Translations under genes and position numbers: made by a program
DNA from: Rhizobiaceae bacterium
GTDB lineage: Bacteria; Pseudomonadota; Alphaproteobacteria; Rhizobiales; Rhizobiaceae
Length of the DNA: 64,000 nucleotides
Reading direction: 5' to 3'
NCBI GenBank assembly: GCA_019635795.1
Contig: JAHBYV010000005.1
Span: 1 to 64,000, forward strand
Part shown: positions 1-26,894 of the stretch, one piece after another
Position numbering within the stretch: position 1 is the stretch's first letter
How the letters are laid out: each line of letters starts with the position of its first letter
The notes under the pieces: model-generated
Told to the model about the DNA's origin: nothing
Databases searched by the model: none
The model's input: the letters and a program-made list of their open reading frames with translations, nothing else

Positions 1-20
1 ATTTGCTAAATAAGTATTTG

Positions 21-41
21 CAACGCGAATGTCTCGCGTTG
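21..41 (-). terminator. hairpin downstream of the maoC-like gene
   Basis: A perfect inverted repeat with 8-bp arms (CAACGCGA / TCGCGTTG, 5-nt loop) lies 24 bases past the stop codon of the maoC-like gene in its reading direction. The bases after it on the minus strand are A/T-rich but contain no clean U-run. It is a possible weak terminator or mRNA-end stabiliser. Confidence 0.35.
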
Positions 42-64
42 CCTCATCCGTGTCTCGGTAGCAC

Positions 65-550
65 TTAGGCCGCTGAAGATTTAGCGGCCTTGCCCCAGCC
101 AGCTGCAGCCGGGCGCTCTCTTCGAAGCAAAACAGTTGCGGAACCCGAGTGGGTCAGCACTCCTTCTTGATTCGGAATTTTCAGATCAAGTTCAACGATT
201 CCACGGTCTTCGTGTTTTACGGGGCGCTTGTTGGTGACTTCAGCCACCACGTGGACTGTGTCCCCAAAACGCACCGGCGCATGAAAATTCCATTTGAGCC
301 CAAGAAGGGCGATCACCGTGCCATCAATGAGATCGATACGGGAAAGCAAGCCGAATGCCACACCAATCCCAAGCGATCCGTGCGCGATGCATTCTCCGAA
401 ATCTGTGACTTCTGCAAATGTGCGGTTCGTGTGAATGGGATTGTAGTCTCCGGTCAGTCCGGCAAACAAAAAGACGTCGCCCTCGGTAATCGTGCGACCG
501 GGCGTAATAAACCGATCTCCGATCTCAAGCTCGGCGTATGTTTTGCCCAT
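65..550 (-). CDS. MaoC-family (R)-specific enoyl-CoA hydratase-like protein
   Basis: A 161-residue single hot-dog-domain protein. Near the N-terminus it carries the MaoC/R-hydratase signature: D35, N37, P38 and H40 (in GDYNPIH) match the Asp/His pair that adds water across an enoyl-CoA double bond, and GS at 58-59 follows as in the family. The length fits a stand-alone hydratase. The gene is transcribed alone toward the left edge, from a promoter containing the same palindrome found before the CoA-ligase and TRAP operons, so it probably supplies the hydration step of that pathway. In steroid side-chain degradation, MaoC proteins work with DUF35 and thiolase-like partners, which are also encoded here. 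The substrate is unknown, and related MaoC proteins include non-catalytic subunits and dehydratases. Confidence 0.85.
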   Translation of the reverse strand: MGKTYAELEIGDRFITPGRTITEGDVFLFAGLTGDYNPIHTNRTFAEVTDFGECIAHGSLGIGVAFGLLSRIDLIDGTVIALLGLKWNFHAPVRFGDTVHVVAEVTNKRPVKHEDRGIVELDLKIPNQEGVLTHSGSATVLLRRERPAAAGWGKAAKSSAA

Positions 551-663: not shown

Positions 664-692
664 ATTATGAATGACCGTTCATTCATAATCAA
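664..692 (-). promoter_or_regulatory. TetR-type operator embedded in the promoter of the maoC-like gene
   Basis: Positions 664-689 form a perfect palindrome with 11-bp arms (ATTATGAATGA and its complement) around CCGT. Read on the minus strand, a -35-like TTGATT (692-687), a 17-base spacer and a -10-like CATAAT (669-664) coincide with the palindrome, so a bound repressor would cover the core promoter. Transcription would begin near 657 and leave a leader of about 107 bases. The rest of the 304-base gap (551-854) shows nothing else recognisable. The binder is inferred to be the TetR protein encoded at 855-1514. Confidence 0.8.
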
Positions 693-854
693 GCTGCTTT
701 TTTGCAATCACGAATTTGAGAATGGAAGTGCAAATATATAGACGGAGGCTTGCAAGCCGTAACTGACCGGGCAAGATGGCACCAGAAAGCACACGCTAAA
801 GAGCGAGGACCTGGTCAGTCGCTTGCTTATTCGATTCCGGAACTGATGTAGAAA

Positions 855-1514
855 CTACGCGGTCGTCTTCTGTTGGCCTGCTTCATTTGCAGGAGATGCC
901 AACGCCGAGGGGAGCAGTATATCCAGCAACCCGTCGATATATTCCTCGATCGACCTCTGCGGAGAAAGACGCCATGCGCTGAGTGGCCAGCTATGGGCGA
1001 GGCATATGCAAGTATAGTTGAACAGGTTCACATCCAGATCCTTGAATACGCCTGCCTTTACGCAGTCTGCTATCGTCTCTTCCAGTATCTTGTTCGTTTC
1101 CAGTTCGCCCATTTTTATGATCTTGAGGCGCTCGGGACTGAGCGATTTTGATTCGCGATAACCGAGAACTGCCGCAGAATGGTTTTTGTTCATCACGATG
1201 CAGTAGGCGGTGAAGCACGCGCGGAAACGCTCAAGCGGATCTGTGATCCCATCAAGCGCTTTGGGAATCTCACGAGAGTATGAATTGATCGCCTCCGCCA
1301 GCGCCAGAAAAAGGAGATCATCCTTGTCCTCAACATACTGGTAAATGAGGCCAATCGATACTTTTGCGGTATCAGCTATGTCGCGAATAGTCGTCGAGTG
1401 AAAACCTTTTGTCGCGAAGAGTTTTGTGGCCGTTTCCGTGATCTGACGCCGCCGCTTGTGAACAAGCTTGGGATTTTCGACGATGCTTCTGATCTCAGTG
1501 ATAATCTGGGTCAT
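855..1514 (-). CDS. TetR/AcrR-family transcriptional regulator
   Basis: A 219-residue protein with a classic TetR N-terminal DNA-binding domain: roughly residues 22-68, with the pattern A..LF..KGF..TTI.DIA..A.VS.G.IY.Y...K..L. The remaining residues form the helical ligand-binding and dimerisation part. It lies between two transcription units whose promoters contain the same palindrome, and a third copy precedes the TRAP operon, so it is the obvious candidate repressor of the cluster. The ligand may be the imported acid or one of its CoA esters, as in many TetR regulators of acyl-CoA pathways, but this is inference. No copy of the palindrome overlaps its own start. The 239-base gap to the divergent ligase gene could carry autoregulation from the ligase-side operator. 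Confidence 0.92.
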   Translation of the reverse strand: MTQIITEIRSIVENPKLVHKRRRQITETATKLFATKGFHSTTIRDIADTAKVSIGLIYQYVEDKDDLLFLALAEAINSYSREIPKALDGITDPLERFRACFTAYCIVMNKNHSAAVLGYRESKSLSPERLKIIKMGELETNKILEETIADCVKAGVFKDLDVNLFNYTCICLAHSWPLSAWRLSPQRSIEEYIDGLLDILLPSALASPANEAGQQKTTA

Positions 1515-1688
1515 ATATTAAATCGTGCCTCTCAGCATACTTCCGATATAAACATAGGAGTATTGCCCCGATCGTGGGCTAGCTTGCCCGCCTCATGTTT
1601 GGCCCAAGATGAATGAACTGGAACAAAGACACAAGCCGGTCGCTCGTCCAGACGGATCATTCGGGAAGAAGAACGCCAAACCTGAAGC

Positions 1689-1717
1689 TTGATTATGAAC
1701 GAACGATCATTCATAAT
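1689..1717 (+). promoter_or_regulatory. TetR-type operator embedded in the promoter of the ligase-reductase-ligase operon
   Basis: Positions 1692-1717 repeat the palindrome seen at 664-689. The arms differ at one base (left arm ATTATGAACGA) and surround ACGA. On the plus strand, TTGATT (1689-1694), a 17-base spacer and CATAAT (1712-1717) form a sigma-70-like promoter with the same geometry as the maoC site. Transcription would start near 1724, about 30 bases before the TTG start at 1754. Confidence 0.8.
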
Positions 1718-1753
1718 CCTTCCCGTTCTTCGTAGCAAATCAGGGAGACGGCC

Positions 1754-3394
1754 TTGCAAACGATGTACGAAGCTTTCCTGGAAACGGTGCGTAACAAGCC
1801 CGATTCCGCTTGCATCTGCGTCCCGGCGGCTCCGGGCAGGGATTATCTGCCAGACGGTGTAGAGTGGAGCTATGGTGAGGTTGAAGCTTCTGTCGCTCGT
1901 CTCATGGAGTTGTATCGCCGCGCCGGATATGGGCACGGGCATGTTGTTGCTCTGATGATGGCGAACCGCCCTGAATTCATGTTGCACTGGTTCGCGCACA
2001 ATGCGCTTGGCATCTGCACGGTCCCGATCAATCCCGATTATCGCGCTCCGGAAATTACGTTCATCCTGAAAAGGTCCGGCACAGACCTTCTGGTTTCACT
2101 ACCGGAATATCTGGATGTGACGACGCAGGCCGCTTCTTCTGCGGAATTACCGCACCCTGTGCCTGTGGTTTCAAGTGCTAACTTCGACGGGTCTTTTGAC
2201 AAGCCACGCAAGGCAATGGAAACCGCGCCTCCGGGACGCGATACGCTTTCGGGTATTCTGTTCACCTCGGGCACCAGCGGTCTGCCGAAAGCCTGTATGC
2301 TCACCAACGAATACATGTTCTTCGCGGGCGAGCGTTACAATGCCACCGGCGGTTTGATGACGATCCAGGACGGGCAGGAGCGTCTCTACAATCCTTTGCC
2401 GTTGTTTTATTCAAACAGCTTCGGGATCTCAAATGCCGCGATGATCCTGACTGGCAACTGCATGATATTTCCTGATCGTTTCCACCCCAAATCGTGGTGG
2501 AAAGAGTTGGCGCAGACGCGCGCCACCATGATCCACTATCTAGGCATCATTCCGCCTGTCTTGCTTTCGCTTCCGCATGATCCGGCCGAGCGGGAGCATC
2601 AGGTACGCTTTGGCGTAGGAGCCGGAACCACCCCGTTGCAGCGCCGTCAGTTCCATGAACGGTTTGGCTTGAGGCTTGTGGAAGTCTGGGGGATGACTGA
2701 GGTCGGCATCTGCATCATCGAGCACAAAGATGCCGAAGTTCTGGACGATGTGAGGACAATTGGCTGGCCGCTGCACGAAACTGAAGTGCGTGTTGCGAAT
2801 GTTAACAATGACAATGATGAAGAAGCACCGCGCGGTGAAGTTGGCGAGTTGCTGATCCGCCGCGCCGGACCTGATCCGCGCAAAGGCTTGTTCGGGGGGT
2901 ACCTCGGTGACGAAGAAACCATGAAGACGGTGTGGCGCAATGATTGGTTCCACACGGGCGATCTGGTGCGCTGGAATGATGACGGTCGTTTGGTTTTCGT
3001 GGATCGTTTGAAAGACATGATCCGCCGTTCCGGCCAAAACATCGCAGCGGCTGAGGTAGAGGTAGGGTTGTTTGGTTTGGAAGGTATCGGAGAAGTGGCA
3101 GTCATAGCCGCGCCCGATGAACTTCGGGATGAGGAAGTGATGGCGTGCATAGTTCCTGCTGCAGGATATGAGCCAAACTCCGACCTTGCGCACAAAATCT
3201 TCGCCGGTGCGGTTGACAGGTTGGCCTATTTCAAGCTTCCGGGTTGGATCGCCTTTGTCGATGAATTGCCGCGCACGAGTACCGAAAAGCTTCGTAAGTC
3301 AGAGCTTTCCAAAAAGATCGATGAACTTCGCAGCAGTGGGAAATGTTTTGACCTTCGCGGGTTGAAAAAGCCGGCAAAAAAATCCGCTGCCTAA
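1754..3394 (+). CDS. Acyl-CoA synthetase (AMP-forming), first ligase of the operon
   Basis: A 546-residue ANL-superfamily ligase that would activate a carboxylic acid to its CoA thioester through an acyl-adenylate. The ATP-binding loop FTSGTSGLPK is at 170-179. The WGMTE motif, the HTGD motif and the hinge region (DRLKDMIRRSGQNI) follow in order. The likely catalytic lysine is K512 (in TEK). It resembles crotonobetaine/carnitine-CoA ligase and medium-chain ligases, but the substrate cannot be read from the motifs. The TTG start at 1754 is chosen because GGGAG at 1743-1747 is well spaced for it; the ATG at 1763 is too far away. It is the first gene of an operon with the Mo reductase (97-base gap containing a run of eight G at 3407-3414) and a second ligase. 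Confidence 0.9.
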   Translation: MQTMYEAFLETVRNKPDSACICVPAAPGRDYLPDGVEWSYGEVEASVARLMELYRRAGYGHGHVVALMMANRPEFMLHWFAHNALGICTVPINPDYRAPEITFILKRSGTDLLVSLPEYLDVTTQAASSAELPHPVPVVSSANFDGSFDKPRKAMETAPPGRDTLSGILFTSGTSGLPKACMLTNEYMFFAGERYNATGGLMTIQDGQERLYNPLPLFYSNSFGISNAAMILTGNCMIFPDRFHPKSWWKELAQTRATMIHYLGIIPPVLLSLPHDPAEREHQVRFGVGAGTTPLQRRQFHERFGLRLVEVWGMTEVGICIIEHKDAEVLDDVRTIGWPLHETEVRVANVNNDNDEEAPRGEVGELLIRRAGPDPRKGLFGGYLGDEETMKTVWRNDWFHTGDLVRWNDDGRLVFVDRLKDMIRRSGQNIAAAEVEVGLFGLEGIGEVAVIAAPDELRDEEVMACIVPAAGYEPNSDLAHKIFAGAVDRLAYFKLPGWIAFVDELPRTSTEKLRKSELSKKIDELRSSGKCFDLRGLKKPAKKSAA

Positions 3395-3491
3395 GTCTGA
3401 GGGTACGGGGGGGGAGTAAGTTTCCGGACGGCGCGGCGGCAGGGATGGTTCTCGCTGGTAATCTATTCAAGCGAGTCCGGAAGGAGGAGAT

Positions 3492-5816
3492 GTGGAGACG
3501 ATCCGGCGGATACCGAACTGCTGCCATTGGGGCGCTTACACCCTCATCATGCGCGGCCAGGAGATCGTGAGCATAGAGCCTGCGGAGGGTGACGAAAACC
3601 CGTCGCCAATTTTGCAGTCTGTGCGTCAGTGGGCTGACCCTTCGCTTCGCGTTTTGCAGCCGATGGTTCGGGAAGGCTGGTTGAAGAAGCGCGAACAGGC
3701 TGATGGCAGCCAGCGCGGCTTGGAAAAGTTTGTTCCGGTTAGCTGGGACATGGCGATTGATCTTGTCGCTTCCGAGATACAGCGCATCCGCGACATTCAC
3801 GGCAATGCGTCCATATTTGCCGGTTCTTATGGATGGGCGAGCGCGGGACGCTTCCATCATGCACCCACATTGCTCAAACGGATGCTCAATCTGTGTGGTG
3901 GCTTTACCGGCCATATGGATACTTACAGCCTCGCAGCTGGACCGGTGATCCTGCGCCACACTGTGGGCTCGGCGGATGTCTGTTACGGCCTGTCGGGAAC
4001 GCTGGACACGATTGCGCAAAACACCAGAACGCTGGTTGTATTCGGCTCGCTTACGCCGAGGACAGCGCAAAATGAGGCGGGAGGCATCGCCAATCATCGC
4101 CTTGAAACCTATCTCAAAAAGGTGGCCGAGCAGGGGATCAGGATAATTGTGGTATCGCCGCTGCGAGACGATGTGCCGGATTGGCTTCAGGCTGAGTGGT
4201 GGCCAATTCGTCCAGGCACCGACACGGCGTTGATGCTTGGCCTTGCTGGCGAAATCCTAAGGGCTGGCGATGCTGATCTCGAATTTCTAGATCGCTGTTG
4301 TAGCGGTTCGGAGCGATATCTTGCCTATCTGGAAGGCAAGGGAGACGGGGTGCAAAAGAATGCCGGATGGGCGGCAGGTATCACCGGTCTCGACGCGAAT
4401 CTGATCAAGTCGCTTGCCAGGAACCTTGTCCAGACCCGTTCCATGTTGATGGTAAGCTGGAGCCTTCAGCGGGCACAGCATGGTGAGCAGCCATTCTGGT
4501 CCGCGCTTGCGCTGGCGGCGATCGTCGGTCAGATAGGTCTGCCGGGTGGCGGCGTAGGGTTTGGTTATAGCGCTGTAGGCGGTGTAGGCGCGCCGGTTTC
4601 GACAACCCGCTCACCAGCAATTTCTCCGCTGCGCAAAGCGCTGAACAGCGCCATCCCTGTGGCACGAATCTCTGACATGTTGCTCAATCCCGGCGCGGAA
4701 TACAGCTATCAGGGAGAAATACGAAACTACCCGGACACAAGGCTGGTTTACTGGGCGGGCGGCAACCCGTTTCATCACCATCAGGACCTGAACCGTCTGA
4801 CAAAAGCCTGGTCTCGCCCTGAGACGATAATCGTGAACGAGCCGATGTGGACCGCGACCGCCCAGCGTGCCGATATAGTGTTGCCCGCAACCACATCCAT
4901 TGAGCGCAACGACATTGCGGGCAACAAGCGCATGGATCGAATGCTTGCGATGGTTCAGGCAATCAATCCGCTCGGGCAGGCGAAATCAGATTTTGATATT
5001 TTCAATCTTGTTTCCGAACGACTGGGCGTTGCGGAAATGTTCAATGAAGGCAGGGATGAGATGATGTGGGTGCGTCATCTCTACGAGGAATGCCGCACGG
5101 ACGCCGCAACGCGCCTTGGCTTCGAAATGCCCGATTTCGATCGGTTCTGGGAAGAGGGGGCGGTTGACCTTCCAAGGAACGACAATCTGAGCTTTCTTTC
5201 CCAATTCCGGGATGATCCTGAACGGTTCAGTTTGAAAACGGAAAGCGGACGCATCGTGCTTGGCAGCGATTTGCTGGCATCCCTCAACTATGATGATTGC
5301 CGCGCGCATCCGGCATGGCTTGAACCGAACGAATGGCTAGGTCGGGCGCGCGACGACGAGTTCCATTTGATCTCGAACCAGCCGGTAGGCCGCTTGCACA
5401 GCCAGATAGACAATGGCGTCAGCAGCAAAGCGCAAAAGCGCAATGGACGCGAACAGGTACGGCTTAATCCGGTAGATGCCGAACGGCTGGGCATTGAGGA
5501 TGGAAGCACCGTGCGCTTGTGGAACGACCGCGGAGAATGTCTGGCAACGGCAACGCTCGACGATGCGGTGCGCCAGCAAGTGGTGACTCTCCCAACCGGG
5601 GCATGGTTCGCGCCGACCAGTAATAGCGGCCTGGATATATCCGGCAATCCTAACGTGCTGACGGCGGATATTCCTTCTTCCAGCTTCGGACAGGGTTGCG
5701 CGGCCTATACCTGTCTGGTGCGCATAGAACCACATGCGACCGGTGCTCCGGATGCGATCTCGTACTATCAAAGCAATATCGCCAAACTGACAGGAAGCGA
5801 CATTGAACGGCACTGA
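3492..5816 (+). CDS. Molybdopterin oxidoreductase, BisC/TorZ (DMSO reductase) type
   Basis: A 774-residue DMSO-reductase-family catalytic subunit that would bind a bis-molybdopterin guanine dinucleotide cofactor. It begins with the HWG motif (12-14) typical of biotin sulfoxide and TMAO reductases. It lacks the N-terminal CxxCxxxC iron-sulfur motif of formate dehydrogenases. SIFAGSYGW (107-115) and TYS (Ser146, inferred Mo ligand) align by eye with E. coli BisC, as do later stretches (WAGGNPFHHHQD; RLHSQ; VNEPMWT). No Tat signal is present, so the enzyme should be cytoplasmic like BisC. The start is GTG at 3492, preceded by AAGGAGG at 3481-3487; the out-of-frame ATG at 3490 is too close to that site. 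An S-oxide or N-oxide substrate is likely from the family. Its place between two CoA ligases is unusual and suggests the substituted acid itself is reduced. Confidence 0.88.
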   Translation: METIRRIPNCCHWGAYTLIMRGQEIVSIEPAEGDENPSPILQSVRQWADPSLRVLQPMVREGWLKKREQADGSQRGLEKFVPVSWDMAIDLVASEIQRIRDIHGNASIFAGSYGWASAGRFHHAPTLLKRMLNLCGGFTGHMDTYSLAAGPVILRHTVGSADVCYGLSGTLDTIAQNTRTLVVFGSLTPRTAQNEAGGIANHRLETYLKKVAEQGIRIIVVSPLRDDVPDWLQAEWWPIRPGTDTALMLGLAGEILRAGDADLEFLDRCCSGSERYLAYLEGKGDGVQKNAGWAAGITGLDANLIKSLARNLVQTRSMLMVSWSLQRAQHGEQPFWSALALAAIVGQIGLPGGGVGFGYSAVGGVGAPVSTTRSPAISPLRKALNSAIPVARISDMLLNPGAEYSYQGEIRNYPDTRLVYWAGGNPFHHHQDLNRLTKAWSRPETIIVNEPMWTATAQRADIVLPATTSIERNDIAGNKRMDRMLAMVQAINPLGQAKSDFDIFNLVSERLGVAEMFNEGRDEMMWVRHLYEECRTDAATRLGFEMPDFDRFWEEGAVDLPRNDNLSFLSQFRDDPERFSLKTESGRIVLGSDLLASLNYDDCRAHPAWLEPNEWLGRARDDEFHLISNQPVGRLHSQIDNGVSSKAQKRNGREQVRLNPVDAERLGIEDGSTVRLWNDRGECLATATLDDAVRQQVVTLPTGAWFAPTSNSGLDISGNPNVLTADIPSSSFGQGCAAYTCLVRIEPHATGAPDAISYYQSNIAKLTGSDIERH

Positions 5817-7437
5817 AACTGCGCTCAATCTTGATCCAAGAATGCCTGCTTTGGAGCGTTGCGTACAACGCTATACACTTGAGAGCTGGGCGGCAAAGCA
5901 GCCGGACAAGGTGTTCGCGGTTTTCCAGAACGATGAGCAGTGGACCTACCGCGACACGCTGCGAGAAGTGATCCGGACAGCCAATGCGCTGAAGGCGCTC
6001 GGCATTCGGCAAGGTGATCGCGTCCTGTGCTGGCTGCCGAACAATTCTGACTGCTTGCGCGTTTGGATGGGGATCAATTTCCTCGGCGCAGCTTACGTTC
6101 CGATCAATCTGGCCTACCGGGGCAATCTGCTTAGCCACGTTATCCGAGTGTCGGGAGCCAGACTTGGGATTATCCATGCGGATTTGCACCAACGGCTTCG
6201 CGATGCAGAGCTTTCCCGGCTTGAAGAGATCGTGGTGCTCGGCGGGGAAGGTGAACCCGTTCCCGGACTCAAAGTGCACTCACAGGAAGCGCTTTCCTCT
6301 ACAGATGAGACGCCGCCAGCGTTGGAGCGGCCAATTGCGCCCTGGGATCTTCAGTCGATAATATTCACGTCCGGGACGACCGGCCCCTCGAAGGGGGTGC
6401 TGTCCTCATATCTCCATCTTTACAGCATGGCGACCGCTGCGCGTTATCTGGGGCAGGACGATCGCTATATGATCAGCCTTCCGCTGTTTCACGCAGGCGG
6501 AGTCATGCCGATTACCGCCATGCTTGTTCACGGCGGATCCATAGCTCTGGTCGATGCTTTCAATACCAATGAGTTTTGGCCGACAGTCAGAAAAAAGGGC
6601 ATTACGACGGCAATGTTGCTGGGTGTCATGGGTGGCTTTCTGCTCAAGCGTCCAGCAGGGCCAGATGACAGAAATCACACCCTGCGGACTTGCACCTATG
6701 TGCCGTTGAATGAGACGGCTACCGAGTTTCGCGAGCGTTTCGGCACGGAGATTCACACTCATTTCAACATGACAGAAATCTCGATGCCGATCGTTTCAAA
6801 GCCAAATCCGACTGCGTTGGGAAGTGCAGGGATTTTGCGACCGGGCGCTGAAGTGCGGATCGTGGATGAGAATGATTGCGAGGTTCCAACCGGGACGATA
6901 GGCCAGCTTATCGTTCGCACAGATTGCCCATGGGCAATGAACAGTGGCTATGCTGACGATGCGCAAGCAACCAATGCAGCATGGCGCAATGGCTGGTTTC
7001 ACACCGGCGATGGGTTCTGGAAAGATGCGGAAGGCAATTATTATTTCGTTGACCGAATGAAGGACGCGATCCGCCGACGCGGCGAGAATATTTCGTCCTT
7101 TGAAGTGGAGTCGGAGGTTTTGTCACACCCGGCAGTTCGGGAAGTGGCTGCCATCGCGGTCAAGAGCGAAATCGCTGAAGACGAGGTTATGGTCGTTGTG
7201 TCGCTCAAGGAAGACACAAGCTTAGACCCGGCGGAACTGATTGAGTTTCTGAGGCCGCGCATGGCACATTTCATGATCCCCCGCTATGTGCGAGTGGTTC
7301 CGGCGCTGCCGCGCACCCCAACTGAAAAGATTGAGAAAGTGAAGCTGCGCGAGCAAGGCATAACTGCCGATACATGGGACCGCGATGCGGCCGGTATCAT
7401 CATAAAGCGCGAGAAAATTGGCGCGCCCACGGCCTAA
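5803..7437 (+). CDS. Acyl-CoA synthetase (AMP-forming), second ligase of the operon
   Basis: A 544-residue ANL ligase clearly different from the first one and nearer to carnitine/crotonobetaine-CoA ligase (CaiC-like) sequences. It contains the ATP loop FTSGTTGPSKG, the NMTE motif, HTGD, a hinge (DRMKDAIRRRGENI) and a C-terminal PRTPTEK with the presumed catalytic lysine. The TTG start at 5803 overlaps the reductase by 14 bases and has AGGAAG five bases upstream, which points to translational coupling; the alternative ATG at 5839 lacks a good ribosome site. Having two ligases in one operon suggests either two related substrates or re-activation of a product after a chain-shortening or reduction step. 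It is convergent with the DUF35 gene, with 28 bases between stops. Confidence 0.9.
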   Translation: MNGTETALNLDPRMPALERCVQRYTLESWAAKQPDKVFAVFQNDEQWTYRDTLREVIRTANALKALGIRQGDRVLCWLPNNSDCLRVWMGINFLGAAYVPINLAYRGNLLSHVIRVSGARLGIIHADLHQRLRDAELSRLEEIVVLGGEGEPVPGLKVHSQEALSSTDETPPALERPIAPWDLQSIIFTSGTTGPSKGVLSSYLHLYSMATAARYLGQDDRYMISLPLFHAGGVMPITAMLVHGGSIALVDAFNTNEFWPTVRKKGITTAMLLGVMGGFLLKRPAGPDDRNHTLRTCTYVPLNETATEFRERFGTEIHTHFNMTEISMPIVSKPNPTALGSAGILRPGAEVRIVDENDCEVPTGTIGQLIVRTDCPWAMNSGYADDAQATNAAWRNGWFHTGDGFWKDAEGNYYFVDRMKDAIRRRGENISSFEVESEVLSHPAVREVAAIAVKSEIAEDEVMVVVSLKEDTSLDPAELIEFLRPRMAHFMIPRYVRVVPALPRTPTEKIEKVKLREQGITADTWDRDAAGIIIKREKIGAPTA

Positions 7438-7465
7438 TTGAGCGGGCAGAAGCCAGGGGTGAACC

Positions 7466-7909
7466 CTAGCTTCCAACCAAAGGACGGAAGGCGATGGATG
7501 CGTTCTCGCCATCTGCGCCAGAAAACACAGCTTTGACCGGCATACCTATGCGAAGCTTGTCTTCGTCCACTTCTACGAGGTTGGTCACAAGCCGAATGCC
7601 CGGTGCGCCTGCAAACGTCACGAGTGCAACGAAGTAGGGAACTTTCTCTTTCAACTTGTCGCCAAAGGGGTGGCAAACTTTCGTATAGCTGTAGAGTTCG
7701 CCTTCCGGTTCCACATCGCTCCACTCGACTGCGCTGGACTGGCAGTGCGGGCATCTGACCATCGGATACCAATGAAATTCACCGCATTCGGTGCAGCGCG
7801 GAAAGCTCAGTCGTGAACGTCCGACAGATTCCCAAAACGGCAGGAATTCAGGCAAAAGCGAGGGCAGGTCGAGGGAGTTTATCATAGTTATCTCTTCGCC
7901 TTTCATCAT
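7466..7909 (-). CDS. DUF35 zinc-ribbon/OB-fold protein (acyl-CoA-binding partner of the thiolase-like protein)
   Basis: A 147-residue protein with a rubredoxin-like zinc ribbon (C39, C42, C53, C56) followed by an OB-fold half (about 65-145). This is the DUF35 architecture found next to SCP2-type thiolases. The ATG at 7909 overlaps the thiolase stop as ATGA, so the two should be translated together. A second ATG at 7885 has GAAGAG before it and could be the true start. DUF35 proteins bind acyl-CoA and form complexes with thiolase-like proteins; in steroid catabolism a DUF35 domain is needed for retro-aldolase activity of Ltp2. A similar role here is inference. Confidence 0.88.
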   Translation of the reverse strand: MMKGEEITMINSLDLPSLLPEFLPFWESVGRSRLSFPRCTECGEFHWYPMVRCPHCQSSAVEWSDVEPEGELYSYTKVCHPFGDKLKEKVPYFVALVTFAGAPGIRLVTNLVEVDEDKLRIGMPVKAVFSGADGENASIAFRPLVGS

Positions 7910-9060
7910 CTGCCCAGAATGGCAACGCCGTAGTCAGGCATTGAGAGCCCACCAACCAGACCAATCCTTGCGTTCTTGACCTGATTGGCGCCGGCCTCGC
8001 CGCGGAGCTGCCTCACGGCTTCGACTACGTGTTCAACACCAAGGCGATAGCTGTAGGACAGCAGACCGCCATGAGTGTTGACCGGAAATCCACCATCTAC
8101 GGTTGTGCCTTTGCTGCGCAGAAAGTCGGCGGCTTCGCCCTTTTTGCAGAAGCCGATGTCTTCTATCTGCATCAGACAGGATATTGTGAAACAGTCATAG
8201 ATCTCGGCGAAATCAACGTCATCAAGACTTATGCCTGACCGCTCGCAGGCTTGTCGGCCAGCCTCCGCGGCTCCGGGTATGTGCATCAGATCGGGCTTTT
8301 GCGTGAATATATCGTCGCCAGTCATGGTCTCCATTGCAAAGCCAACGCCCAGAACATTCACAGGCGGCTTGCGCAGGTCTTTCGCCCTTTCTGCGGAGGT
8401 CATGACGAACGCCCCGGCACCATCGCTGATAAGGCAGCAGTCGGGAACGCGCAGAGGGTCAGAAATCACGCGGCTGTTCATGTAATCTTCGAGCGTAAGC
8501 TCTGAACGCGCCTGGCTACGGCCGGTCAACAGCGCGTTCTTGCGCTGATTGACTGCGATCATTGCCAGGTCTTCTTCCTTGAGACCGTATTCGTGCATGT
8601 ATCGACGGGCCCAAAGCGCAAAATAGGAAGGCTGGCCACTGAATCCAAAAGGCTTCTCATAAGCGGTTTTCGCGGGATAAAGATCGTGGAAGCCATATGG
8701 ACCGGCAGGTATGGAACCCCAGTCAACGCCGAAATAGCAGAGCACGTTCTTTGCTCGACCCGCCCGGATTGCCATTTCTGCAAGCATTGGCGCGCACACG
8801 ATACCAGCACCGCCATAGGACAGGGCAGCGTCAAACGTTCGGTCGATGCCCAATTGCGCGGCCACATACTCATGAGGCACCGAGTTTGGCATGATCACGG
8901 AGTCGGTAACGATCCCGTCAATATCTGATGGAGAAAGGCCCGCATCGGCTATGGCCTCAATGCTGGCGTCGATCACAAGCTGTCGCAGGTTTTTGTCGGA
9001 GCGCCTCACAGGGGGCGTTTCACCAATGCCAACAATGCAAACCGGATCGTGATGCGACAT
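7906..9060 (-). CDS. Thiolase-like protein (SCP2/lipid-transfer family), possible acyl-CoA aldolase
   Basis: A 384-residue thiolase-fold protein of the SCP-x/acetyl-CoA acetyltransferase-like group. The N-terminal half lacks the usual nucleophilic-cysteine context: the equivalent region reads SYGGAG (81-86), with a displaced Cys89. The C-terminal half keeps the YDCFT (Y288) and NTHGG (H330) motifs followed by LLSYSY. Thiolase-like proteins without the first cysteine include Ltp2-type retro-aldolases, whose proposed catalytic tyrosines fall in comparable C-terminal segments. So a carbon-carbon cleavage of a 3-hydroxyacyl-CoA is at least as likely as thiolysis. The start at 9060 has GAAGGAG upstream. 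It sits downstream of dctP and overlaps its DUF35 partner by four bases. Confidence 0.85.
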   Translation of the reverse strand: MSHHDPVCIVGIGETPPVRRSDKNLRQLVIDASIEAIADAGLSPSDIDGIVTDSVIMPNSVPHEYVAAQLGIDRTFDAALSYGGAGIVCAPMLAEMAIRAGRAKNVLCYFGVDWGSIPAGPYGFHDLYPAKTAYEKPFGFSGQPSYFALWARRYMHEYGLKEEDLAMIAVNQRKNALLTGRSQARSELTLEDYMNSRVISDPLRVPDCCLISDGAGAFVMTSAERAKDLRKPPVNVLGVGFAMETMTGDDIFTQKPDLMHIPGAAEAGRQACERSGISLDDVDFAEIYDCFTISCLMQIEDIGFCKKGEAADFLRSKGTTVDGGFPVNTHGGLLSYSYRLGVEHVVEAVRQLRGEAGANQVKNARIGLVGGLSMPDYGVAILGR

Positions 9061-9094
9061 GATGGTGGGCTCCTTCGCCAGGCAGGTTAGGGGG

Positions 9095-9126
9095 CCGTCC
9101 CGCTCGGTATAAACAGAGCGGGACGG
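9095..9126 (-). repeat. strong intercistronic hairpin between dctP and the thiolase gene
   Basis: A perfect inverted repeat with 11-bp G/C-rich arms (CCGTCCCGCTC and its complement) around a 10-nt loop lies 10 bases past the dctP stop. No U-run follows, so it is more likely an mRNA-stabilising or polarity element than a full terminator. Such hairpins behind solute-binding-protein genes often raise the binding protein above its co-transcribed partners. Confidence 0.75.
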
Positions 9127-9135
9127 GTAGTCCGG

Positions 9136-10227
9136 TTACTTGGTTTCCGGGAACTTCTGCTCGTAGATCGAGTTTGGTTCGTACTTGGCAAGTATCTCGC
9201 GGAACTTCGTCATGAATGCAGGAAGGTCAACCTTCGTGAGTTCCTGTCTGCGCTTGTACCAATCGGTTTCGAGCGCGTCGAAGTCAAAGTTCTTCTTCCA
9301 TTCGTCGATTTCTTCAGGCTTGAAGCGATAGAACGAAATGCCCTGCTTCGTAGCTGCGTCAACGGTCAGCTGCTCGCCGTCCATCACCATCTGGATCGAC
9401 TTCTTCGGGAATTCACGCCGCATCTCGGCAAGCACTTTCTTCACGTCGTCGGAAAGGCCCTTGTAAACGTCGCTGTTCATGACCAACCCGCAGGCATAGT
9501 AAGTTCCGATGCCCGGATCGACGATGGTCTTGGTAACAGGGAGCCAGTTTTCCGGATAAGGCATCCAGAGCGGAATAGAGATGTATCCGTCAATGACACC
9601 CGTCTGCATGCTGGTGAAAATTTCTGCTGCGGACAGCGGCACTGGCGTCGCACCACCGCCGCGCTGGACGATATTGCCCATGTCGCCAAGCGCGCGCAGC
9701 TTCATTCCCTTGATGTCAGCGGCGGACTTGATTTCGCGGTTGCCGCCAATGATTGTCGGCGAAGGCGCGTCGAATGCCAGCAACTCAACGTTCAGAGCAC
9801 GAAACTCGTTCTGGAAGTCCTCGTTGTTTTCAAACAGCTCAGTGGCGGCTTGAGCCCACGCATCACCCTTGGTGGTGAGATATGGCAGTTCCAATGTTGA
9901 TGTCAGCGGGAGCAGGGCTGGTGAATAGCCTGCGCAGAAATAGCCCAGATCAGCAACGCCGCGCCCGACGCTGCGCAACATATCAACAGCGCGGATAAGT
10001 GCTTCGCTGTTGTACTTGTCGGTGATTTTGATTGCCCCGCCAGTTCTTTCGGCAAGCTCGGCAAGAAACACGTCATACTGACGGCTGTTGACTGAACCAG
10101 CGCTTACGTGAGTGGCGAAAACCATTTTCGTTTCGGCTGAAGCAGTATGCGAGGCAAACATGCTGAAGCCGAAAGCGGCTGCAGCTATCCCGGTGCCCAA
10201 TCGGGAAATCATGGATCTCAAGTTCAT
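9136..10227 (-). CDS. dctP: TRAP transporter solute-binding protein (DctP family)
   Basis: A 363-residue periplasmic binding protein. The N-terminal signal peptide ends in ASHTASA, with predicted cleavage near residue 31, and is followed by the DctP-type start ETKMVFATHVS. The family features are present: a beta-alpha binding lobe, GGNREIKSAADIKGMKLRA (the conserved substrate-carboxylate-clamping arginine region), SLPL-like internal segments and FTSMQTGVIDG. The reading frame is open further upstream but has no protein-like sequence there. The start is set by GGAGGAA directly before the ATGs at 10230 and 10227. It delivers the substrate, most often a carboxylate in this family, to the DctM/DctQ pair encoded just upstream. 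It resembles binding proteins for aromatic or aliphatic acids, but the ligand is not identifiable. Confidence 0.92.
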   Translation of the reverse strand: MNLRSMISRLGTGIAAAAFGFSMFASHTASAETKMVFATHVSAGSVNSRQYDVFLAELAERTGGAIKITDKYNSEALIRAVDMLRSVGRGVADLGYFCAGYSPALLPLTSTLELPYLTTKGDAWAQAATELFENNEDFQNEFRALNVELLAFDAPSPTIIGGNREIKSAADIKGMKLRALGDMGNIVQRGGGATPVPLSAAEIFTSMQTGVIDGYISIPLWMPYPENWLPVTKTIVDPGIGTYYACGLVMNSDVYKGLSDDVKKVLAEMRREFPKKSIQMVMDGEQLTVDAATKQGISFYRFKPEEIDEWKKNFDFDALETDWYKRRQELTKVDLPAFMTKFREILAKYEPNSIYEQKFPETK

Positions 10228-10256
10228 CATTTCCTCCATTTGATGTCGAATCCGTA

Positions 10257-11561
10257 TTAATTTGCTAGCTGAGGTATAAAGAGCGAGATTGATGGGAACA
10301 TAACAAGTACCAAAAGTATCAGGAGCTCCATGACAACAAATATGGATACGCCTTTGAATACTTTCTCGACAGGAATGTCTTTGTTTATTCCGCGAATAAC
10401 AAAAACATTCAGCCCAAGTGGCGGAGTAATGTTTGATATTTCGCATATCTTCACGATGATTACACCGAACCAGATTGGGTCGAAGCCAAGCGCCATCACC
10501 GCTGGGAAGACAATCGGCAGCGTAATGAGGCACATCGAGATTGGCTCAAGGAACATCCCAAGCGGGATGTATGCCAGCAGGATCAGGAACAGGATCGCAT
10601 AGGGGCTCAGTTCCAGACCCGTCAGGAATCTGGCAAAGTCGGTCGCCAATCCTGCAAGTGCGACGTACTGGCTGAAAAGCCCCGCGCCGATCAGAATCAG
10701 GAAGATCATGGCGCATGTGCCTGCCGCTTCCCGGCTTCCCGAAAGAATGGTGCGCAGATTGGCCTTCCTATAATAGAACATCAGCAAGAGCGCCACTATC
10801 GCGCCGACCGCAGCAGATTCTGTTGCGGTGAATATGCCTGTGTAAATACCGCCAATGATGACAGTGAACAGCACCCAGATTGCCCATGAATCGCGCAGCG
10901 AGGAAAACCGCTCGGACCATGAAAAGCGCTCTGCCGAAGTTGGCATGAGGTGCGGCTTCCACCAGGCAAGCAGGTAAAGCCCGATGGCGAACACGATTGC
11001 GGTTAGAATTCCGGGCAGGATGCCTGCGAGGAACAGCAACGCGATGTTGGTTTGGGTAACGATGCCGTAGACGATCATCATGATGCTTGGCGGGATCATG
11101 ATGCCGAGCAAACCAGCGGATGCGATGGTTCCGGCGCTGATAGCGTCGTCGTAGCGGAAGCGCTTCATTTCCGCCATGGCGATTTTGCCAAGTGTGGCCG
11201 AGGTAGCAACGCTCGAACCGGAGGTGGCGGCGAATGCAGCGCAGGCAAACACGGTTGCAACCGCAAGCCCGCCCTTCAAATGCCCCACCCATCGATAGGC
11301 CATTCGGTAGGCATATTCACTGATGCCGGCAGCCGAGGCCAGATAGCCCATGAGAATGAAGAGCGGGATCACCGCCAGGCTAAGATCAGACGATTTCGCG
11401 TATGGCATTGTCGTCAATGCGGTCAGCGCCACCGCCTCACCGCGCAGGATAAAAATGCCGACGAGCGATGACATGATGAGCACGAATGCTACGGGCATCC
11501 CGATTACCAGCCCCAAGGCAAAGCACCCGGCGACAGCCAGAAGGGAGAAATCCATTATCAA
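10257..11561 (-). CDS. dctM: TRAP transporter large permease subunit (DctM family)
   Basis: A 434-residue inner-membrane protein with about 12 hydrophobic segments, the usual size for DctM. Typical stretches include the early GLVIGMPVAFVL, GSSVATSATLGKIAMAEM, the IPPSIMMIVYG loop and NITPPLGLNVFVI near the end. It would form the sodium-coupled translocation path for the substrate brought by DctP. The gene overlaps dctQ by four bases (ATGA) and precedes dctP by 29 bases, so the three are one unit. The ATG at 11555 is an equally possible start. Confidence 0.95.
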   Translation of the reverse strand: MIMDFSLLAVAGCFALGLVIGMPVAFVLIMSSLVGIFILRGEAVALTALTTMPYAKSSDLSLAVIPLFILMGYLASAAGISEYAYRMAYRWVGHLKGGLAVATVFACAAFAATSGSSVATSATLGKIAMAEMKRFRYDDAISAGTIASAGLLGIMIPPSIMMIVYGIVTQTNIALLFLAGILPGILTAIVFAIGLYLLAWWKPHLMPTSAERFSWSERFSSLRDSWAIWVLFTVIIGGIYTGIFTATESAAVGAIVALLLMFYYRKANLRTILSGSREAAGTCAMIFLILIGAGLFSQYVALAGLATDFARFLTGLELSPYAILFLILLAYIPLGMFLEPISMCLITLPIVFPAVMALGFDPIWFGVIIVKICEISNITPPLGLNVFVIRGINKDIPVEKVFKGVSIFVVMELLILLVLVMFPSISLFIPQLAN

Positions 11562-12052
11562 TTATCCTCGTTTTCGATGACGGGGCGGCCTTGGAGCAGC
11601 GAAACCAACTGAATAATCAGTTCAATGCTGAGCAGGACAAAGCCGATGCCGATCACCAATTTGGCCGGCCAGAGCGCAAAGTGTGTCGTGCCGAATTTGA
11701 ATTCCCCGAGCAGATAGCTGTCATAGGCTTCGACAAGCGTTCCGTAGCTGAGGATCACGGTGATGAGCAGGCAAACCAGCAGCGAAGCAGCGTGGCAGGC
11801 TTTGCGCATCCCGTCCGACATCATGGTTACAACCAGCTCGATGGCGACGTGGTTCTCCCTGCTTTGTGTGTAAGCCAGAGTGAGAAAGACCACCAAAACC
11901 AACAAAATCTCGGCCAGTTCGGCACTGCCTTCGACGGTGTAGCCCATCGATCTCATAATGATTGAGCCGACCACAATAAATGCCAGCAACAGAAGGGCCA
12001 GGGCTCCGATATTGCCCGACGCCTTGATAAGTGAGCGAAGAATGGAGCGCAT
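11558..12052 (-). CDS. dctQ: TRAP transporter small permease subunit (DctQ family)
   Basis: A 164-residue protein with four predicted membrane helices, the size and layout of DctQ. It includes the TQSRENHVAIELV segment that matches the conserved small-subunit motif. The frame stays open upstream to 12241, but the ATG at 12052 is preceded by GGAGG at good spacing and starts the recognisable protein. It is the first gene of dctQ-dctM-dctP-thiolase-DUF35, about 245 bases after a predicted TetR-controlled promoter. It would pair with DctM to form the transporter core. Confidence 0.92.
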   Translation of the reverse strand: MRSILRSLIKASGNIGALALLLLAFIVVGSIIMRSMGYTVEGSAELAEILLVLVVFLTLAYTQSRENHVAIELVVTMMSDGMRKACHAASLLVCLLITVILSYGTLVEAYDSYLLGEFKFGTTHFALWPAKLVIGIGFVLLSIELIIQLVSLLQGRPVIENEDN

Positions 12053-12292
12053 TGCGTTCTTACCTCCCGAGCAAATTCGGCGGGCGCACCGGAATTGAAT
12101 ACACAATGGCTGCTGATTTCCGCGGGTTTGACATCCCACCAAAGCGCTGCCTGCCACTGGGCACGATATTGCAGTCCGATACCAGTTTTCGCGGCGCGCA
12201 CGAAACCGGTCCCGCCAGAGTGTGGCGGGCACTAAGGTCAAGCCTCAAGTTTGTTCCTCCCGGAAAGGGATCGCGCTGACAGCGTGGCCCCG

Positions 12293-12331
12293 AATATGAA
12301 TGAATATTCATTCTTTTTTTGGGGCTGTCAA
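12293..12331 (-). promoter_or_regulatory. promoter and third TetR-type operator before dctQ
   Basis: On the minus strand a consensus -35 TTGACA (12331-12326) is followed after 17 bases by the -10-like AATATT (12308-12303). The palindrome GAATGAATATTCATTC (12298-12313) covers the -10. Aligned with the other two sites, the left arm matches ATTATGAATGA at 10 of 11 bases and the right arm at 8 of 11. This links the TRAP-thiolase operon to the same regulator, with a leader of about 245 bases before dctQ. Confidence 0.72.
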
Positions 12332-13258: not shown

Positions 13259-15892
13259 TCAGGGTGTCCAATCCGTCATTGCAAGGACGTTGCCACCAAG
13301 CTTTTGAAAGGCGCGCTGACGGCACGAAAATACAATGATCTGCTGATCGCGGGACTGCCGGTGCAGAGCATCAAACATCTTCTCGATTCGGTCATCATCT
13401 GAATAAACAAGCGCATCGTCCAGAATAACCGGTGCCGGCCTGCCATCGCGCGCAAGAAGTCTGGCGAAAGCGAGCCGGGTCAGGATTGAAACCTGTTCGC
13501 GCATACCGCCGCTCAACCGTTCGACTTCTTCTTCCTGCCCGTTGCGCTTCACGCTTTGCGGCAGGAGCGATTTCTCATCGAACGTGACGGTGATGTCGTC
13601 GAACAAAAGGCCAAGCAATGGCCGCAACTCGTTCATCACCGGCTGAAGATAGAGTTCGCGCGCATTGGAACGGGCAGCCTGCAAAGCGCTGCACAGCCTT
13701 TGAAGAACAGCGGATTCTGTTTCAAAGTTTTCCGCTCGCTTTCTGGCTGTGGAAAGGGCCTCAACCGTTTCGCGCCATTTCTCCTCAACTGCCTCATCAG
13801 AACGGGTTCGTATTTCGGCAATCAACTCTGCAATGGTGACGCGCAGCTTGCTTGCCTCCTTGTCGGCGGCGTCATGCGCAGACCGCAACCTGTCAAGCGT
13901 TGCCTTCGCGGAATCCAGATCGACAGTTGTGGATCGTAGCTGCCTCACATTCTCTGCTCGAAGGGCAAGATCATTTTCAAGGCTGGATAGTTTGTCCGCC
14001 AGCATTTGCATTTTGATCGCACGCTGATCTTCTGGCCCCAGGATGCTTTCGAGTTGTGCGCTCTTTGCGTTCAGCGCTGCAAGTGTGGTTTGCGCCTCAA
14101 AATATTTGTCCGAAGTTGCCTCCCGCATTGGCTCAAGCTCAACAAGACGCAGGCGAGCATGTCGTCTCCTCGCCTCAGCCTCAGCCAGTTCAGCGCGCAA
14201 TTGATCGGGGTTTCCTTTCAATTCCAGATCGGCAGGCGATTCGAAATTGCTCGATGCGATTTCTGCGCGAAGCGTCTCCAACCCTTCGGGAGCTAACAGC
14301 GCGAACTCGGCGCGCATCTGTAACAATTCGGCTTCTGTCTCCTTCGTTTCCGACTGCCTCTTGCGGGCTGCGGCAAGATCAGAAATGCCCATGGACACAA
14401 GCAACTCTTGCCGTTTGGATTTTGCGGCGGCCAAACGGTCATCGGCAGGGGCAACGCGGTTAGAGCGCAATGTGATCGTTCCGATGCCGGGCACGGCTAG
14501 TTCTGCCCGATCGTCGTAGCCGCGCTCCTCACCTGCATTCAGCTCTACCCCATCCATGACAACCAGAGACGGCGTTGATGGGCTATAGCTGACCGAAACG
14601 GAAGGGCGTGCGGCTTCCTGAAGCGCTTTCAATTTTACAATTTTTACAATTTCAATTTCGATGGCTTGCAGATCGTCGACAGCTTTCGGCGAAATTCTGA
14701 GGCTTGCGAGACGCGCCTGTGCTTCTTCGATCCTTCGGCGAGCCGCTTCAGCTTTCTCCAGTTGCGCCTTAAGTTTTGCCAATCGCTCGGCAGCCTCTCT
14801 GGCATGTATTGCGGCGGTCAGGCGGTCGAGCAGTTCTCGAGCAGCTTGCGCGGCAATCTCTGCAGCTTCATTCTCCGCTTTTGCTTGGTGAATGGTCGCC
14901 AACGCGTTGTCACGAGCGGAAAGTGCATCAGCGCGGCGGCGTTCGGCTTCAACAATTTGGGACCGAAATTCTATTGAGCTTTCGAGCGCTTCACGAAAAC
15001 TGCTCAGTTCCCTGCTTGCGGTGGCTTGGCGCTCCTGTGCCAGCCGCAACTCGGCTTCTGCTGCCTTGACCGCCTCGCTTTGTGCTTTTGCTGCATCGAA
15101 CGCCGCTTGCGCCGCCTCAATGTCTTTTAGTCGTTTGGCCCGGTCTTCAGCCTTATCGAGGTCAGACAAGAGCCGAGTCGCGGAAGCTCGCTTGTCCAGA
15201 GCATCGCGCAAAGCTCGAACCTCCGCTTCAAGCCTCTCTGCTTCAGCAGTCAGCCTGTCTCTGGTCTCGATAGCGGCAGCGTATCTACCTCCAGCTTTAG
15301 GTCGCCCGGTTGGCGTTAGTAGCTCGGCGAGCGCCTTTTCGGCGATGCTCTGTATCTCGGTCATTCGCCGACCGCCGGTGATAGCCTCAACTTCGCCCTG
15401 AACAGACTCGAGCAAGCTTGCGCGCACCTGCTTTTCGCTTTCCTCCTCAGATTTTCCGCGCTTCTCGATCCCGGTAATGCCTTGCCTTACCCATAGCAGT
15501 CCGGAGGGCCCGGATGTGCCGCCGCCAATCAGGCCGGAGATGAAGTTTTCAGCTTCATCGGCCTGCGCCACCAACCGTCCGGTTGCTATGTCGGCGATGC
15601 GCGCAAACCGACCACCGTAGTATTGCTTAGTTATGCGGAACCGCCCTGAGGCTGTCGAAACATCAGCTTCGACGAGGGGATTGCCAGCACTATACGGCCG
15701 CAAATTGCGTACCTCGCTTGATGTGCTGGAATGTGGATAGAAAAACAGCGCGTGCAATGCTTCAAAGCTGGTTGATTTTCCGAACTCATTAGGCGCGCTC
15801 AGCACGTTTACGCCCTCACCGATGTCCTCAATGGCTACACCGCGACCGGCAAAGCGCTTTACGTTGAAAAGGCGAAGGGCCTCAATTTTCAC
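13259..15892 (-). CDS. AAA-type SMC-like ATPase, YhaN/SbcC family
   Basis: An 877-residue ATPase with the split nucleotide-binding domain of the SbcC/Rad50 group. Walker A is at 32-41 (SAPNEFGKST), followed by a very long Ala/Glu/Arg-rich coiled coil from about 190 to 740. The ABC signature LSGGMREQ is at 793-800 and Walker B (PVILDDA) near 821-827. The coiled coil shows no CxxC zinc hook, which fits YhaN rather than SbcC/Rad50. The start ATG overlaps the stop of the phosphoesterase gene by four bases. Such pairs form nuclease complexes acting on DNA ends or hairpins; the role of YhaO/YhaN is less well known than that of SbcCD. Confidence 0.88.
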   Translation of the reverse strand: MKIEALRLFNVKRFAGRGVAIEDIGEGVNVLSAPNEFGKSTSFEALHALFFYPHSSTSSEVRNLRPYSAGNPLVEADVSTASGRFRITKQYYGGRFARIADIATGRLVAQADEAENFISGLIGGGTSGPSGLLWVRQGITGIEKRGKSEEESEKQVRASLLESVQGEVEAITGGRRMTEIQSIAEKALAELLTPTGRPKAGGRYAAAIETRDRLTAEAERLEAEVRALRDALDKRASATRLLSDLDKAEDRAKRLKDIEAAQAAFDAAKAQSEAVKAAEAELRLAQERQATASRELSSFREALESSIEFRSQIVEAERRRADALSARDNALATIHQAKAENEAAEIAAQAARELLDRLTAAIHAREAAERLAKLKAQLEKAEAARRRIEEAQARLASLRISPKAVDDLQAIEIEIVKIVKLKALQEAARPSVSVSYSPSTPSLVVMDGVELNAGEERGYDDRAELAVPGIGTITLRSNRVAPADDRLAAAKSKRQELLVSMGISDLAAARKRQSETKETEAELLQMRAEFALLAPEGLETLRAEIASSNFESPADLELKGNPDQLRAELAEAEARRRHARLRLVELEPMREATSDKYFEAQTTLAALNAKSAQLESILGPEDQRAIKMQMLADKLSSLENDLALRAENVRQLRSTTVDLDSAKATLDRLRSAHDAADKEASKLRVTIAELIAEIRTRSDEAVEEKWRETVEALSTARKRAENFETESAVLQRLCSALQAARSNARELYLQPVMNELRPLLGLLFDDITVTFDEKSLLPQSVKRNGQEEEVERLSGGMREQVSILTRLAFARLLARDGRPAPVILDDALVYSDDDRIEKMFDALHRQSRDQQIIVFSCRQRAFQKLGGNVLAMTDWTP

Positions 15893-26175: not shown

Positions 26176-26324
26176 GTTTATTATCTGTTTTGACCCTCAA
26201 AGAAAGAATTAGACGTATACAAAGGCTAGAAGCTGTCAAGTTTTCGTTGCTGAATAAGAAACGTTGCGGCATTCATCGTTCCTGTATTGCTGTAGAATGG
26301 CAACATCTTGCGAGATAAAAGAAT

Positions 26325-26894
26325 ATGCCAGCGCCTGATAATCAGAAAAATAAGCCCCAAAAAGATGGTGCGGTATCAGTGTTGGATCAGGAATATTTGA
26401 AGCATCTAATAAAGATAAACGATATATTTTATAACCAGATCAGCACTGCCGATCAGAAAGCGGCATTCATATTCACCTTTATGATGGCGTTTCTTATCAG
26501 TTCCACTGAAGGTAAAGAGGTTTTCAGCCTGGACAGGTATAAGTCTGGAGAGGTCGTTGCTGTCATACTGTCGGGCTTCATGGCTCTTTCGGTGTTGGTA
26601 TCGGTCGTTTCAGCGGTGCTGGTTGTCCTGCCTCGCCACGTAAAATCATCAACGTCGCTCTATTGGGTGGATTGGTCGAAGAATCGCAAGACCCTGGCCG
26701 AGGCATATGAGGGAAAAGACGCGGGTTATCTATTTACGGAATATCTTGCCAACGCCGATACTCTCGCAGCTATCGCAGGTGCAAAATACAAGTTTGTTTG
26801 GCTGGCGTTTCGGGGGCTTCTCGTCAGCGTCGTGGGCTACGTGCTGCTGTTGATCTGGCAAGTCGGAGGAACGGCTTTGCCTGCTGGGGGATAG
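26325..26894 (+). CDS. membrane protein resembling DUF5706/PycTM Pycsar effectors
   Basis: A 189-residue protein with a short hydrophilic N-terminus and an amphipathic segment ending in STADQKAAFIFTF, close to the ADxKAxxxL motif of DUF5706 proteins. Hydrophobic segments lie at about 45-62, 82-105 and 163-182. Proteins of this type are the membrane effectors of Pycsar anti-phage systems, where cCMP or cUMP made by a dedicated cyclase triggers membrane damage. Here the gene is divergent from the FecR-CHASE2 cyclase pair, not in an operon with a cytoplasmic PycC. The assignment rests on motif resemblance by eye. It could equally be an unrelated small membrane protein. Confidence 0.5.
   Translation: MPAPDNQKNKPQKDGAVSVLDQEYLKHLIKINDIFYNQISTADQKAAFIFTFMMAFLISSTEGKEVFSLDRYKSGEVVAVILSGFMALSVLVSVVSAVLVVLPRHVKSSTSLYWVDWSKNRKTLAEAYEGKDAGYLFTEYLANADTLAAIAGAKYKFVWLAFRGLLVSVVGYVLLLIWQVGGTALPAGG

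Follow-up and report, generated by a model that had tools for sequence, protein, structure and literature searches.

The window analyzed here covers 64 kb of the genome of a Rhizobiaceae bacterium (G000; 3,256,896 bases in 30 contigs) and starts at base 1 of contig C26, which is a contig end (C26:1). It carries a small, well-supported TetR regulon whose kind is familiar but whose set of enzymes is unusual. Three palindromic operators surround a single tetR gene and precede a maoC hydratase gene, an acyl-coenzyme A (CoA) ligase-reductase-ligase operon, and an operon for a TRAP transporter, a thiolase-fold protein and its DUF35 partner (Table 1). While this layout is solid, the control that it implies is probable: the TetR protein would repress the three units by filling their promoters, and would be freed by a CoA ester.

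An earlier note, made from the sequence of the window, had described three copies of a palindrome in front of these units, the first perfect, the second with one mismatch and the third weaker, and scans of both the window and the genome recovered them at these places. Site 1 fits ATTATGAATGA-N4-TCATTCATAAT without mismatch and site 2 with one, for a chance expectation of 0.00 in the window and no match in window shuffles, while site 3 (TGAATGAATATTCATTCT) differs from the 18-bp core by one mismatch. Sites 1 and 2 also have in common, without mismatch and in opposite orientations, the longer TTGATTATGAAYGANNNNTCATTCATAAT, which includes the -35 hexamer and has no counterpart in shuffles. The promoter scan likewise returned the promoters that had been described, TTGATT-17-CATAAT at sites 1 and 2 and TTGACA-17-AATATT at site 3, with site 3 covering the -10 element of the latter. 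Such promoter-like matches are found at near-chance levels (3 versus a shuffle mean of 1.4, and 2 versus 0.4) and are weak evidence when taken alone. An operator overlaps each of the three promoters and is conserved alongside the regulator. The Rfam scan of the window gave no structured RNA at the gathering threshold, and no relevant literature was found for the operator sequence, on which PMC6449355 and PMC10531765 also contributed nothing.

In the whole genome, the exact 18-bp sequence TGAAYGANNNNTCRTTCA is restricted to sites 1 and 2, and the exact 16-bp sequence GAATGANNNNTCATTC to sites 1 and 3. With one mismatch, the 18-bp form is found at six places, namely site 3 and five others, all five of the latter falling inside open reading frames (ORFs) of at least 120 aa, although such an ORF does not prove a gene. 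Two further one-mismatch copies of the 16-bp form exist, at C23:101088 and C25:100400. Up to two mismatches, the 18-bp form has 48 matches and the reversed pattern 13; the latter, whose word composition differs from that of the operator, provides little control. TetR matches in this genome number eight, counting the window tetR, with six among the matches listed, and no copy within one mismatch lies beside the five listed paralogues (among seven matched at E <= 0.001). Copies scattered at unrelated promoters, for which the earlier note had proposed to scan the genome, were thus not found, and a motif dispersed over the genome is ruled out by the intra-ORF position of the five off-cluster 18-bp copies (the two 16-bp copies being set aside). 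An origin of the operator by chance is ruled out by the window shuffles, the genome scan and the loci of relatives.

The scan of relatives, also proposed at that time, was favorable. TetR relatives (37-46% identical) are encoded in the family, in the order and on Burkholderiales contigs, and the motif GAAYGANNNNTCRTTC is present in 12 of 15 such loci (24 matches in 280,093 bases, two pairs of which overlap, i.e., 22 places), but in none of the 11 loci (210,510 bases) used for comparison. In 100 sets of random sequences, drawn from the dinucleotide frequencies of each locus, the motif is found 0.1 times on average and twice at most. The count leaves out L089 (a 46-residue match) and L038 (motif beside a distant TetR); L026, where the motif is likewise beside a distant TetR, belongs to neither set, L037 (29% TetR) is among the comparison loci, and short loci repeating the same places (e.g., L006 and L007) were counted once. 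These comparisons tie the motif to the TetR protein. Two genomes from another family (G040 and G144; loci L036 and L084) each have a site that separates tetR from the TRAP genes and another before a ligase-aldolase-DUF35 operon; ligase 1 (51-52% identical to the window protein), dctPMQ, tetR, another ligase, the aldolase (66-69%) and the DUF35 protein (46-50%) are all encoded there. Relatives of the aldolase at E <= 1e-120 exist in at least four of 397 genomes of the order (G000, G040, G144 and G345), and in all four a relative of ligase 1 is encoded at the aldolase locus (51-53% and 47% in the G040, G144 and G345 loci); as only the top few candidates per genome were scored for the aldolase and ligase 1, these counts are lower bounds. 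Among the other TetR-relative loci, the two with scanned genes (L078 and L080) hold hydratases, acyl-CoA dehydrogenases, short-chain dehydrogenases/reductases (SDRs) and ligases, with branched-chain-type permeases in L080; two annotated plasmids with TetR relatives encode CoA ligases, enoyl-CoA hydratases, acyl-CoA dehydrogenases and SDRs, and distant TRAP genes are present at the Burkholderiales loci.

Several of these comparisons set limits to this reading. Three of the 15 TetR-relative loci lack the motif, two of the three having one-mismatch copies. Genes of G040 and G144 are regrouped, as ligase 1 lies downstream of TRAP and a different ligase accompanies aldolase-DUF35; MaoC and the molybdenum (Mo) reductase were not found in these two loci. 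The G345 trio is devoid of the motif and lies beside an oligopeptide-type ATP-binding cassette (ABC) transporter and an amidase. TetR relatives are also encoded on plasmids pJP4, pDB1, pAZKH and pJE1, and none of the four carries an operator copy within one mismatch. Lastly, GAAYGA-N4-TCRTTC is found beside two more distant TetR genes (L026:1426-1441 and L038:7896-7911), and the motif alone therefore does not identify the binding protein; judging from these sequences, the operator type extends beyond the subfamily of the window TetR.

The proposal of a regulon joining uptake, CoA activation and chain cleavage is nonetheless supported by the relatives and by the genome scan, with the amendment that a retro-aldol cleavage fits better than a thiolytic one. 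The thiolase-fold protein is a candidate Ltp2/Sal-like aldolase, because the nucleophilic Cys is absent, a YDCF motif is present, Tyr338 aligns with Tyr344 of Ltp2 and a DUF35 partner is encoded next to it. Leu80, in ALSYGG, takes the place of the Cys, which is also missing at this position in the L036, L084 and L104 proteins, and Y288-D-C-F, which provides Tyr288 and Cys290, is identical in the four aligned proteins. Ltp2 catalysis proceeds via Tyr294 and Tyr344, CtSal employs two residues of its YDCY motif, Tyr and Cys, and SCP-2 thiolases have an HDCF motif (PMC12329534). The best solved matches of the putative aldolase and of its partner are two chains of the same structure, 6ok1 (Ltp2 and ChsH2-DUF35; 215.7 and 65.2 bits, respectively). 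The window pair thereby resembles Ltp2-ChsH2(DUF35) and Sal-Shy in its thiolase fold without nucleophilic Cys, its YD[HC][FY] motif (YDHF or YDCY/YDCF), its adjacent DUF35 partner and the hydratase of the regulon; it differs from them by a free-standing DUF35 protein, a separate MaoC gene and a setting of TRAP uptake and ligases.

Alternatively, the cleavage enzyme and its DUF35 partner could form a true beta-ketothiolase, comparable to BbsAB or to the "beta-ketoadipyl-CoA thiolase" predicted for pJP4 (PMC6449761). This would be consistent with the Pfam Thiolase_C_1 and NCBIfam thiolase/acetyltransferase names, with the thiolase prediction for the pJP4 relative (same source), and with the match of the window protein to 4u4e, named a thiolase, which at 214.6 bits nearly ties 6ok1. 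However, 4u4e is itself without Cys at the nucleophile position of the alignment, and the window protein has Leu80 in place of this Cys, Tyr338 in place of the His of the GHP stretch (as aligned with 7yvy) and YDCF instead of HDCF; neither the nucleophilic Cys nor the HDCF/GHP motifs of degradative thiolases were found in it. Furthermore, the ten genes include no 3-hydroxyacyl-CoA dehydrogenase. A true thiolase thus appears unlikely, and an aldolase of the Ltp2/Sal type is the preferred candidate.

The plasmids bear on the same question. On pJP4, the gene order is tfdA, acyl-CoA synthetase, thiolase-like, OB-fold, Rieske subunit, helix-turn-helix regulator, TetR, SDR and ABC transporter gene(s), and it is the same on pDB1, with a TauD/TfdA-family gene in the place of tfdA. 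Both have a TetR 43-45% identical to, and in the same tree group as, that of the window, together with the ligase-thiolase-like-DUF35 order; in contrast to the window, their thiolase-like protein (34-35% identical, the ligase being at about 25%) has YDDF, and ABC transporter genes replace TRAP. A perfect palindrome, GAGTGAAGCTTCACTC, which is a variant of the operator layout (GAGTGA-N4-TCACTC), is common to the two and precedes the ABC binding-protein gene, whereas pAZKH and pJE1 have only imperfect copies with two mismatches. By eye, the pJP4 "thiolase" beside tfdA (L122:5302-6468) carries YDDF and lacks a Cys where the nucleophile would be, which makes its prediction as a beta-ketoadipyl-CoA thiolase (PMC6449761) doubtful. 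In a tree of 21 TetR rows, the five that accompany a ligase/thiolase-like/DUF35 module stand on one side of a branch with a support of 89/90, which is under the star level of the tool, and none of 500 label shuffles was as low; these five rows were hand-picked by loci holding an aldolase-like gene and, with the near-copies pJP4/pDB1 and one same-genus pair, amount to about three independent lineages.

The earlier note had also recognized the tetR gene among the three operator-led units, and TetR_N and TetR_C_24 domains were indeed matched in its product. Structural neighbors of the TetR model (predicted local distance difference test score 84.2) include AibR, PfmR, KstR2 and FadR, and the high-ranking fold matches include repressors solved with an acyl-CoA: AibR with isovaleryl-CoA and Bacillus subtilis FadR with stearoyl-CoA. 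The window TetR is only 18-25% identical to AibR, PfmR, KstR2 and B. subtilis FadR and has a different gene set; the unrelated DarR and QacR are nearly equal to these acyl-CoA-linked repressors as structural matches, and the NCBIfam FadR equivalog NF053878 gave 51.3 bits where 200 are required. In the proposed mechanism, a TetR dimer would bind the palindrome TGAAYGA-N4-TCRTTCA at the three promoters and occupy the -35/-10 space, thereby blocking RNA polymerase. It would control maoC, the ligase 1-reductase-ligase 2 operon and the TRAP-aldolase-DUF35 operon, and probably itself via operator 2; by analogy with its relatives, the inducer would most likely be the CoA thioester that one or the other ligase produces. 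Another possibility is that a different TetR-type protein, for example a genome-wide fatty-acid regulator, binds the three sites and that the neighboring tetR answers something else. The two distant TetR genes with adjacent motif copies (L026 and L038) point in this direction, as does the operator itself, which presumably resembles that of B. subtilis FadR. Against it, the exact sites surround only this tetR in the genome, no listed paralogue has an adjacent copy within one mismatch, and the orthologous TetR loci carry the motif, making a second regulator rather improbable compared with the TetR encoded in the cluster.

As for the function of the regulon, TRAP would import an organic acid that a ligase would couple to CoA; MaoC would hydrate an alpha,beta-unsaturated acyl-CoA, and the aldolase with DUF35 would split the beta-hydroxyacyl-CoA by retro-aldol cleavage into acetyl- or propionyl-CoA and an aldehyde or ketone. 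Ligase 2 would act on a further acid, and the reductase, as its family hints, on the substrate in the form of an S- or N-oxide or on a similar compound. We infer each of these reactions from the gene products. An unsaturated or beta-hydroxy acid would be favored as substrate because no acyl-CoA dehydrogenase gene is among the ten; the genome has 13 acyl-CoA dehydrogenase matches, one of them 46 kb away within the window, so that a dehydrogenase may still take part. The broader scenario is tentative, and possible rather than probable: the regulon would encode an undescribed route, distinct from steroid degradation, for a carboxylate imported by TRAP. This acid (unsaturated, beta-hydroxylated, or an S-/N-oxide first reduced by the Mo reductase) would undergo activation and hydration before an Ltp2/Sal-like aldolase-DUF35 complex splits it, and an old TetR branch would have travelled with the ligase-aldolase-DUF35 module, even to the 2,4-D plasmid pJP4, whose "thiolase" would be of the aldolase type. 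Degradation of steroid or bile-acid side chains as the role of the set, or a TetR acting as activator, is very improbable: the aldolase and DUF35 do have their closest solved relatives in steroid side-chain degradation, and the structural neighbors of TetR include KstR2, but the operators overlap promoters, which fits repression, and uptake is by TRAP; as no search for steroid ring-degradation genes was made, these counter-arguments are weak. A clean three-promoter regulon for a catabolic pathway offers a ready-made inducible reporter for substrate screening. If the enzyme is a retro-aldolase, steroid side-chain aldolase chemistry may extend to other acids, and "thiolase + OB-fold" gene pairs elsewhere, including the pair beside tfdA on pJP4, may need re-reading.

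The gene content given in the earlier note was borne out by Pfam and NCBIfam, except that the "thiolase" function is doubtful and that dctP and dctQ start within their longest ORFs. The dctP start would be near 10239, judging from a signal-peptide-like stretch, and the dctQ start is likely the ATG at 12052, after GGGAGG. The ligase 2 ORF overlaps that of the reductase by 14 bases, and the aldolase and DUF35 ORFs overlap by 4 bases, so that each gene group looks like one transcript. The MaoC translation contains GDYNPIH, which we take to be the motif of R-hydratase-type enoyl-CoA hydratases. Solved TRAP proteins matching DctP are many, all of low similarity, and uninformative on the substrate.

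Table 1. Operators and genes of the proposed TetR regulon (window positions).
Feature	Position	Strand	Basis or context
maoC, R-hydratase-type enoyl-CoA hydratase	65..550	-	Pfam MaoC_dehydratas, 84.1 bits (cut-off 27)
Operator 1	664-689, in promoter 692..664	-	maoC promoter; fills -35/-10 space
tetR	855..1514	-	TetR_N, 49.6 bits (cut-off 24); TetR_C_24, 41.3 bits
Operator 2	1692-1717, in promoter 1689..1717	+	ligase promoter, tetR/ligase divergent region
Acyl-CoA ligase 1	1754..3394	+	AMP-binding, 183.6 bits
Mo-bis(molybdopterin guanine dinucleotide) oxidoreductase, dimethyl sulfoxide (DMSO)/trimethylamine N-oxide (TMAO)/biotin-sulfoxide reductase group	3492..5816	+	TIGR00509, 975.3 bits
Acyl-CoA ligase 2	5803..7437	+	AMP-binding, 212.3 bits
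DUF35/ChsH2-type OB-fold partner	7466..7909	-	Pfam; C-x2-C-x10-C-x2-C ribbon; best solved match 6ok1_B
Thiolase-fold protein, Ltp2/Sal-like putative retro-aldolase	7906..9060	-	YDCF, no nucleophilic Cys
dctP, TRAP solute-binding protein	9136..10239	-	DctP, 120.8 bits
dctM, TRAP large permease	10257..11561	-	DctM, 304.4 bits
dctQ, TRAP small permease	11558..12241	-	DctQ, 64.4 bits
Operator 3	12297-12314; promoter 12331..12303	-	over -10, TRAP-aldolase-DUF35 promoter

The Mo reductase has DMSO reductase 1eu1 as its best solved match (606 bits), with DMSO and TMAO reductases at the top, and its TIGR00509 (BisC subfamily) score stays below the cut-off of 1017.55. Like the BisC/DMSO reductase group, it is matched over nearly its full length and, by eye, has no N-terminal leader; unlike them, its gene is flanked by two CoA ligase genes, which is the case for none of its five closest relatives in 151 genomes. 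A role as conserved part of the module was rejected, as none of the loci of these five relatives (64-69% identical) holds tetR, MaoC, aldolase, DUF35 or TRAP genes (E <= 1e-5); in one of them, L062, there is a ligase of about 25% identity.

At the contig edge (window 1-110, - strand), strong hairpins lie around and past the maoC stop (z -3.66; 1 of 200 shuffles as good) and possibly end or stabilize the maoC transcript. A continuation of the maoC unit into contig C4 was considered, as the right end of the latter (L132/L135, G000) holds, going inwards, a cut ORF resembling, by eye, an acyl-CoA ligase, then MaoC, an ORF that no Pfam model matches and an enoyl-CoA hydratase, then an acyl-CoA dehydrogenase split over two frames, a CoA-transferase and another dehydrogenase. 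The contigs were left unjoined: nothing shows that C4 and C26 meet, the first 120 bases of the window match elsewhere in the genome only over stretches of up to about 26 bases, and strong hairpins follow maoC.

Two gene groups further into the window stand apart from the regulon. At 13259-17013, overlapping genes for an SMC/AAA-type ATPase and a calcineurin-like phosphoesterase form an SbcCD-like pair, with SMC_N below its cut-off. At 20519-26894, a CHASE2-adenylate/guanylate cyclase gene and a FecR-TPR gene are accompanied by a divergent PycTM (Pycsar effector-like) gene; the PADLOC models PycC (99 bits) and PycTM (51 bits) gave matches, and as the cyclase is of the CHASE2 sensor type, this group is a candidate defense system only.

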